Positions 56,814 to 58,217 of a DNA stretch of 64,000 bases are shown here, in pieces (position 1 is the first letter of the stretch; every line of letters begins with the position of its first letter). Source of the stretch: Oligoflexales bacterium (GTDB lineage: Bacteria; Bdellovibrionota_B; Oligoflexia; Oligoflexales; JALZUQ01); contig JALZUQ010000048.1 in NCBI GenBank assembly GCA_023301465.1, positions 1 through 64,000 on the forward strand. Direction: 5' to 3'. The notes below the pieces were generated by a model. It was given only the letters and a program-made list of their open reading frames with translations, ran no database searches and was not told where the DNA came from. Both the position numbers and the translations under genes were made by a program.

Positions 56814-57521
56814 TTGCTCAAGTTTTGTCTTCCGATTCTCTTTATTTTTCAGTCTTTAGTAGCTTATTCTAGTTCTTCTGACCCTTCTGTATGCCACCGT
56901 AGATTTAAATCAGTTCTGTTAGAAGAGAATCAAGTTTTAATACTAAAGAGTGAAGTGGAGTTACGAAGTTACCCTCGTTTAAAGCGGTTTGTTGACTTAA
57001 TGCTTGTGGGTCCTGCTAGTATCGTAGCTATCCCTGTCGCTAGTGTGATGGCTTTGCTTGTAAAGCTTGATAGCCCAAAAGAACCGGTGTTTTTTAAGCA
57101 AAGCCGTATTGGCTACCGAGGTAAAAAATTCAAGATTCTTAAAATGAGAACGATGACAGACTCTCATGGTGAAAAACGCATAACAAGAATTGGAAGGTTT
57201 TTGAGAAAGTACCACCTCGATGAAATTCCGCAAATATTTAATATATTAAAAGGTGATATGACTTTTATTGGTCCAAGGCCTTTAACTGAAGAGGTGAATC
57301 AAGAAGATCTTCAAAAATTTGATGGCCTTGAAGTAAGGTTTTTTGTGAGGCCGGGGTTAACGGGGCTTGCTCAGGTAAAGTGTCATTATCAAAATACAGA
57401 TGAAGAAGCCGAATCTAGAGTAAGACTAGACGTGGAATATGTTCGAAATCAATCGGCATTTTTAGACTTAAAAATTATGTGCGAAACACTATGGGTGTTG
57501 CCGCAAGGGCGTGCTCTTTAG
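56814..57521 (+). CDS. bacterial sugar transferase (undecaprenyl-phosphate glycosyl-1-phosphate transferase-like)
   Basis: KRFVDLMLVGPASIVAIPV, FFKQSRIGYRGKKFKILKMRTM, DEIPQIFNILKGDMTFIGPRPL, RPGLTGLAQV. Confidence 0.9.
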   Translation: MLKFCLPILFIFQSLVAYSSSSDPSVCHRRFKSVLLEENQVLILKSEVELRSYPRLKRFVDLMLVGPASIVAIPVASVMALLVKLDSPKEPVFFKQSRIGYRGKKFKILKMRTMTDSHGEKRITRIGRFLRKYHLDEIPQIFNILKGDMTFIGPRPLTEEVNQEDLQKFDGLEVRFFVRPGLTGLAQVKCHYQNTDEEAESRVRLDVEYVRNQSAFLDLKIMCETLWVLPQGRAL

Positions 57522-57532
57522 GTTTAGTGGAA

Positions 57533-57755
57533 AATAAAAAAAAGGAAAGAAGGGGAGTTAAAGGTGCCGGTACCCGAGATCCAATCAAAGAAAGGAGGTG
57601 AGCACCGGCTTGAATCTTCACCCGAAGATGAGGGCTATGAGGCCATCACCTCCGTGCTACTGGTTCCTAGTTCTGTCACCATGCACCACCTCCTTTCCTA
57701 AGCATATAGCTTATGGGCTCTTGGGTTAGGGTCATCCTTTAACCTATTGGAGCCT
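57533..57755 (-). ncRNA. putative structured ncRNA of unrecognised class
   Basis: Minus-strand sigma70-like promoter, at least five mutually compatible helices including an 11-bp SD/anti-SD-like stem, U8 tract at 57543-57536. Confidence 0.6.
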
Positions 57756-57761
57756 ATAATT

Positions 57762-57790
57762 ATTATATAGGAAGTCGAAGTCTCAGACAA
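57762..57790 (-). promoter_or_regulatory. sigma70-like promoter for the putative ncRNA
   Basis: TTGTCT (57790-57785), 17-nt spacer, TATAAT (57767-57762) on the minus strand. Confidence 0.6.
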
Positions 57791-57812: not shown

Positions 57813-58217
57813 TTATGATTCAGCTTCTTCGTCGGTCGTTTTGGCTTCTTCTTCGGCTTTTTCACGTCCAGCTTTCAAGATTTCAATCACCATGGTTTCT
57901 ATTTCCATGTCTGATTTTCCTTGGTGTTCCGCCATAAGGTGAAGCATCTGTTCTGTAAGCTCGCTTCTTTTACGAGGATCACGATAAAGCCCGTAAGTCT
58001 TTACGCGTTTTGTCATCGCACTAATGGGGATACTGCGTTTTTGTGCGTAGTTTTCTGTAAGAAACTTGGATGCCTGAACACGGTGAAGAAAGTAAGCGAT
58101 AAAGTCATCATCCTTACTCCATTCTTGACTACTACGACGGGTACGCTTCTTTTTTGTCGGAGTTTTCGTCGTTTTCGTGGTTTTAGCTTCTTTCTTTAAA
58201 TCGTCAGCAATCGACAT
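57813..58217 (-). CDS. hypothetical protein with Lys/Arg-rich N-terminus
   Basis: 134-aa charged ORF (AKTTKTTKTPTKKKRTRRSSQEWSKDDDF). Confidence 0.55.
   Translation of the reverse strand: MSIADDLKKEAKTTKTTKTPTKKKRTRRSSQEWSKDDDFIAYFLHRVQASKFLTENYAQKRSIPISAMTKRVKTYGLYRDPRKRSELTEQMLHLMAEHQGKSDMEIETMVIEILKAGREKAEEEAKTTDEEAES

Follow-up and report, generated by a model that had tools for sequence, protein, structure and literature searches.

Ms_IGR-5 (RF02471), an actinobacterial sRNA found in Mycobacterium smegmatis, is transcribed in Streptomyces lividans (PMC8079986) and S. avermitilis (PMC8780764), and a transcript detected in M. smegmatis overlaps it (PMC10454040). Ribo-seq revealed ribosome footprints on Ms_IGR-5 in M. 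abscessus and M. smegmatis; the same source states that footprints on sRNAs can be non-ribosomal (PMC4974804). A description of an ORF, of a fixed spacing between an internal Shine-Dalgarno (SD) sequence and a stop codon, or of members outside Actinobacteria was not found in the accessible text of the open-access literature on Ms_IGR-5.

RNA gene, 16S rRNA complementarity and homologues

The window, the 64-kb stretch of Oligoflexales DNA analysed here, contains an intergenic RNA gene that is present in a single copy in the genome (Table 1). The promoter consensus predicts a transcript start at about position 57755. The minus-strand RNA folds beyond its shuffled versions (z -3.4), but the plus strand of the same region does so as well (z -4.0), so that the strand was not chosen by folding alone. 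The minus strand was assigned on the basis of its promoter, the conserved ORF and the homologues. A plus-strand RNA was rejected, because the minus strand carries the best promoter as well as the conserved ORF.

Table 1. Features of the RNA gene, with positions in the window
Feature	Position	Strand	Remarks
Promoter TTGTCT - 17 nt - TATAAT	57762..57790	-	Sigma-70-type; 10/12 consensus matches; position inferred from consensus
Whole RNA gene, ~220 nt	57536..57755	-	3' end with 8 consecutive U (57543-57536)
Hairpin P1 GGCUC..GAGCC	57716..57754	-	Belongs to a 5' domain not seen in other phyla
Hairpin P2 UAAGC-UAUAU-GCUUA	57699..57713	-	Immediately 5' of SD1; compensatory changes in the order
SD1 GGAAAGGAGGUGGU	57685..57698	-	Can pair over 14 nt with the 16S 3' tail; includes GGAAAGGAGGUG (57698-57687)
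Hairpin P3 GUGC/GCAC + UGGU/ACCA	57654..57686	-	From SD1 end to SD2 base; contains the start codon
Micro-ORF, 15 codons, MVTELGTSSTEVMAS and stop	57635..57682	-	Stop UAG at 57637-57635; frame test
SD2 GGAGGUG	57647..57653	-	Inside the ORF; second copy GGAGGUGAUGG at 57653-57643
Hairpin P4 GGAGGUGA/UCAUCUUC	57624..57653	-	Buries SD2; stop codon near the loop
Anti-SD mimic CACCUCCUUUCU	57589..57600	-	Copy of the 16S tail; lineage-specific
Terminator-type hairpin GCCGGUGC/GUACCGGC	57566..57609	-	Anti-SD arm in the loop
3' pyrimidine tract CUCCCCUUCUUUCC	57544..57557	-	Partner of SD1 in the minimum-free-energy fold

Neither a tRNA nor a tmRNA was found at the locus, and no match to the RNA was found in viral contigs. 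The downstream neighbour in the window is a sugar transferase gene (56814-57521), convergent to the RNA gene. Directly upstream, a minus-strand gene (57816-58217) adjoins rpsU and the S10 ribosomal operon and encodes a lysine-rich protein of 134 residues with no Pfam match. A link of the RNA to the adjacent rpsU or orn was ruled out, since the neighbours differ between families and phyla.

A scan of the window showed that 14 consecutive bases of SD1 pair with the 16S tail when G-U pairs are allowed. This run exceeds all others on the window's minus strand, the next longest having 11 bases; on the plus strand the longest run, of 13 bases, is simply the anti-SD arm read on the opposite strand. 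The tail used was that of order members, as the 16S gene of the window's own genome is truncated before its 3' end. The 16S genes of order members end with GGCTGGATCACCTCCTTTC; matches occurred in 9 of 43 genomes, which show the tail GGATCACCTCCTTTC and include G001, a member of the same family as the window. The first-pass annotation of this DNA had described the 5' arm as nearly complementary to the 16S tail, which the 14-nt run bears out. The sequences that it named (GGAAAGGAGGUG, CACCUCCUUUCU and GGAGGUGAUGG) are present on the minus strand to within one base, and they go beyond chance expectation. SD1 is kept in all homologues, and in nearly all copies it pairs with 14-16 nt of the tail, far above an ordinary SD. 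Judging from this complementarity, the RNA should bind the ribosome unusually tightly. A text search of papers for the SD1 strings returned nothing relevant.

A DNA search recovered the core of the element from about 25 genomes belonging to the order, and scanning the genome collection with a sequence pattern placed homologous loci in Oligoflexales, Oligoflexus and Pseudobacteriovorax MAGs. The conserved core consists of P2, SD1, P3, GGAGGUG and the hairpin over GGAGGUG. P2 and P3 covary within the order. When pairing partners were swapped between copies, P3 was more stable with its own partner (-9.1 versus -7.2 +/- 0.2 kcal/mol), as was P4 (-17.1 versus -15.6 +/- 0.2 kcal/mol), and both advantages hold within groups as well. 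The covariance model R1 detected the element in most families of the order. It found none in the class-mates f12 and no convincing copy in the order members f6, f11 and f4, hence the RNA is not universally needed. The R1 matches L105, L106, L108 and L109 were discarded as chance or other features. Genome G017 possesses a second, divergent copy (L107; G017:C18, 72453-72532) with the reading frame MTSFDNSSMEVRTS followed by a stop, and P4 formed by AGCAUGGAGGUG/CACCUCCAUGCU. The genome G025 (f11) harbours a dispersed repeat, GGCAAGGAGGTGGTTTGGAGGAAACTGCGCAGCTGGTTCCTCCAA, with about ten weak model matches (L286-L289, L294), and R2 matches in this genome were ruled out as copies, being part of a dispersed repeat.

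Blind R1 matches in other phyla were converted into a general search pattern, and with it unrelated phyla yielded some 17 convincing copies. Seventy-two out of 95 genomes matched in the phylum of G142, with one copy in nearly all of them. For the phylum of G302, called Streptomyces-like from neighbouring genes and an Rfam match, an unforced match was found in 63 of 297 genomes, and the reversed control pattern matched 0 genomes. Copies of Dehalococcoidia found by pattern scan possess SD1, a 21-codon ORF ending in VEVGAS and a stop, and SD2 with the usual spacing to that stop; in one of them, L074, the long stem has compensatory changes. SD1, a hairpin, a micro-ORF, SD2, the spaced stop and a helix over SD2 are thus laid out alike in Chloroflexota, the Streptomyces-like phylum and others. 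Model R3, built without Oligoflexales or Chloroflexota, recovers nearly all homologues, and its best match in the window is 57699-57635 (E 2.4e-5).

The Ms_IGR-5 model RF02471 matches the same element, with 72-98 bits for L192-L195 (Streptomyces-like), 58.9 bits for L158 from another phylum and 39.9 bits, under the cut-off, for L162; other matches are weak. The window copy had no match to RF02471, neither at the gathering score (45 bits) nor at E up to 10. Rfam describes RF02471 from Actinomycetota, whereas the loci of the window copy are in Oligoflexales-type MAGs. Two possible relatives, L282 and L284, carry an extended SD, a short ORF and a CCTCC-bearing hairpin, without SD2. L282 also weakly matches the Rfam family anti-hemB (26.3 bits, below the cut-off), and E. 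coli genomes gave no match to the possible relatives L290 and L284.

Anti-SD arm and alternative folds

The first-pass annotation proposed an intramolecular switch, in which the anti-SD arm sequesters SD1, SD2 competes for the arm, and the RNA senses free 30S subunits or titrates SD sequences. Pairing of the arm with SD1 exceeds that of shuffled sequences in the window's copy (f1), in f7, in part of f8 and in L010 of f5. The proposed stem is not the minimum-free-energy fold, as the full RNA reaches -76.4 kcal/mol with the SD1/arm stem and -81.7 kcal/mol in the best fold. Folding of successive 3' ends in the window predicts that the openness of SD1 drops from 0.64 before the arm to 0.0 once the arm is transcribed. 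The order average falls from 0.51 to 0.25, and the Streptomyces-like phylum stays near 0.5. The motif CACCUCCUUUC or CCUCCUUUC is found in the loop of the terminator hairpin or its 5' arm in the window, f7 and part of f8, and in f8 g14 the loop partly changes together with an altered SD1, all of which would suit the switch.

However, in G001, f9, f10, most of f5 and some f8-g14 copies the arm is lacking, or its pairing hardly differs from chance. About half of the families have no arm or a weak one, so that the element lacks the conserved fold-back arm of type I toxin mRNAs, and the arm lies outside the conserved design of other phyla. The annotation had considered homologues that keep the stem and lose the SD/anti-SD identity; the reverse was found, with the SD kept and the anti-SD arm lost in many of them. 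Competition by the second GGAGGUG looks strongly disfavoured as well. Forcing SD2 to pair with the arm costs about 22 kcal/mol (one pairing tried, register approximate), and SD2 has its partner within its own hairpin, in the 3' half of P4. As a general mechanism, the switch is thus unlikely. The folding models make it plausible that the arm acts as a fold-back brake in one lineage, which is not a conserved design. The broader suggestion of a ribosome-facing RNA fares better, being supported by the conservation and complementarity of SD1 and by the footprints on Ms_IGR-5.

Micro-ORF and the spacing between SD2 and the stop codon

All of the 25 Oligoflexales homologues possess a start codon after SD1 and an open frame, and the distance from SD2 to the stop is identical in all of them. 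The start is ATG, GTG or TTG, located 6-12 nt past GGAGG in every Oligoflexales homologue checked. The frame test was passed by 23 of 23 homologues in the ORF frame, compared with two and one of the 23 in the other frames, and the reading frame is kept although the loop lengths of P3 vary. The conserved ORF has 14-17 codons, and the peptides range from 10 to 22 residues. Since a conserved ORF starts after it, SD1 is probably the working SD of the micro-ORF and more than a mere mimic. The annotation correctly recognised the match of this SD mimic to the ribosomal tail and missed the 14-17-codon ORF that SD1 precedes.

Counted from the first base of the GAGGUG of SD2, the stop codon starts 15 nt further on, both in the window and in all Oligoflexales homologues that were checked. 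Its position is constant among these homologues whether it falls in the loop or in the stem of P4. The ORF ends 14-17 nt after GAGGTG in all 63 Streptomyces-like copies, found with a search pattern that forced no stop (54 at 15, seven at 14 and two at 17). The stop codons in these copies are TAG (46), TGA (14) and TAA (three). Three different stops at near-constant spacing indicate that the position of the stop is conserved, and not the codon. A requirement for RF1-specific stops, with TAA or TAG only as in Oligoflexales, was ruled out by the 14 TGA copies; cross-phylum patterns containing TAR, which forces the stop, were not counted as evidence on stop identity. SD2 is located inside P4 in all copies, and P4 by itself could explain the conservation of SD2. 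A GAATCC-like motif (GGAATCCAAACCGGTTCACCG) past the stop, just 5' of the 3' arm of P4, was observed in L155, L157, L183-L208 and other phyla.

These observations bear on whether the RNA is a structured sRNA with no coding role, titrating 30S subunits through SD1, the ORF being incidental. The complementarity of SD1 is far beyond the needs of initiation and the actinobacterial copies are entered in Rfam simply as an sRNA, but the frame test and the fixed stop position with three stop codons make this reading improbable.

It is quite improbable that the RNA is merely the mRNA of a functional peptide. A conserved ORF with a C-terminal ending of the type S-x-E-V-x-x-S occurs in Oligoflexales, Chloroflexota and others, as expected for such a gene. 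However, the N-terminal half of the peptide is hypervariable among homologues, the products have only 10-22 residues, and no companion gene was seen. In seven out of the 63 Streptomyces-like copies SD2 is in another frame, resulting in unrelated C-termini (e.g. GGGSS before the stop), and in L096 the E is changed to G with the G-rich SD2 retained. The conserved E-V motif was therefore ruled out as the selected unit, and the copies in another frame indicate that nucleotides and spacing are conserved, not the peptide. By sequence, MVTELGTSSTEVMAS and its homologues are short and polar, and not hydrophobic as type I toxins are.

Near-cognate starts (CTG, ATT, ATC or ATA) were assigned in 18 of the 63 actinobacterial-type copies, in a start search that is permissive once such codons are allowed. 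Only a near-cognate start fits in L186, L200-L204, L206, L207, L210-L212, L217, L218 and L237-L239, all of which have the full extended SD. Glycine-rich ORF ends were observed in L280 (SSGGCGGEEG, then stop) and L281 (SAGGCGGVGS, then stop).

A leader-peptide attenuator of a downstream gene in cis is highly improbable, since the next gene in the window, encoding the sugar transferase, is convergent rather than co-oriented and neighbour orientation and identity differ among families and phyla, despite the short ORF, the alternative hairpins, the terminator-like 3' end and the location of most Dehalococcoidia copies seen upstream of birA-like genes.

Proposed mode of action and comparison with known systems

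The RNA gene, the conserved micro-ORF, the complementarity of SD1 to the 16S tail, hairpins P2, P3 and P4, the fixed spacing between SD2 and the stop, and the kinship with Ms_IGR-5 are, taken together, a description in which we have high confidence. Our preferred reading, which is tentative, is a stand-alone micro-mRNA related to Ms_IGR-5, in which SD1 captures a ribosome and SD2 holds it at termination. A 30S subunit would be recruited through extended pairing of SD1 with nearly the whole 16S tail. Initiation would occur on the start codon within P3, and the ribosome would translate about 15 codons, opening P3 and P4. At the stop codon, SD2 could pair once more with the 16S tail, so that the terminating ribosome or, after termination, the 30S subunit would stay on the RNA. 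With the stop in the A site, SD2 is 8 nt upstream of the P-site codon. This is within the range of SD1-to-start spacing and of normal SD-to-start spacing, so that re-pairing at termination could take place. The ribosome-occupied RNA would then act in trans, as a reporter of or buffer for free or terminating ribosomes, rather than by way of a useful peptide. In the part of Oligoflexales that includes the window, the 3' anti-SD arm would serve as a fold-back brake, with SD1 open in the nascent RNA and closed afterwards.

Capture at SD1 is supported by sequence complementarity together with the published mycobacterial footprints. Retention of the ribosome at the stop and the regulatory role are what we infer, and retention through SD2 is favoured because the conserved quantity is the SD2-stop spacing, not the peptide. 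Extending this to a micro-mRNA class of many phyla, capturing ribosomes by an extended SD, anchoring the same ribosome at the stop by a second, in-frame SD and acting as ribosome sensor or reservoir, is speculative and rather doubtful. Nevertheless, what has been classified as a non-coding sRNA of actinobacteria appears to be widespread in many phyla, usually in a single copy and with a conserved micro-ORF. If ribosomes are indeed held at termination by SD-16S pairing, this would give an RNA a new means of sensing the state of ribosomes. The proposal also provides a testable hypothesis for Ms_IGR-5 in S. lividans and M. smegmatis.

Among Rfam families, the Caulobacter sRNA CC2171 (RF01867) gave a weak match of 12.0 bits, for a gathering score of 75, that runs through GAAAGGAGGUGA alone. 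It was rejected as a relative, since the match is at chance level, on the plus strand and with a collapsed alignment; a snoR35 match was also at chance level.

Fold-back type I toxin mRNAs, such as hok and H. pylori AapA1 with its metastable structures (PMC6733600), resemble the window and some families in that a nascent SD predicted to be open is later closed by a 3' anti-SD segment. Unlike in these mRNAs, the peptide of the window is short and polar and the fold-back arm is not conserved. No antisense antitoxin was noticed in a non-systematic look.

The C/U-rich loops of sRNAs of the S. aureus RsaE type and of H. pylori RepG pair with the SD or with G-rich sites of mRNAs. Similar to them, the window and f7/f8 present CACCUCCUUUC in the terminator loop. 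However, the loop sequence is not conserved across the order, and the RNA of the window has an SD and an ORF of its own.

Ms_IGR-5 and the window copy share SD1, SD2 (GUGAGGUG in Ms_IGR-5), the stop spacing, the terminator and an intergenic location. Ms_IGR-5 is also similar in having a hairpin GGUCC/GGAC and a downstream CAGUCACC that covers SD2. The window copy differs by an extra 5' domain (P1 and P2) before SD1, by GUGC/GCAC in P3, by a different P4, by the anti-SD arm in the terminator loop and by a score below Rfam detection. The RNA of the window is most likely a divergent relative of Ms_IGR-5.
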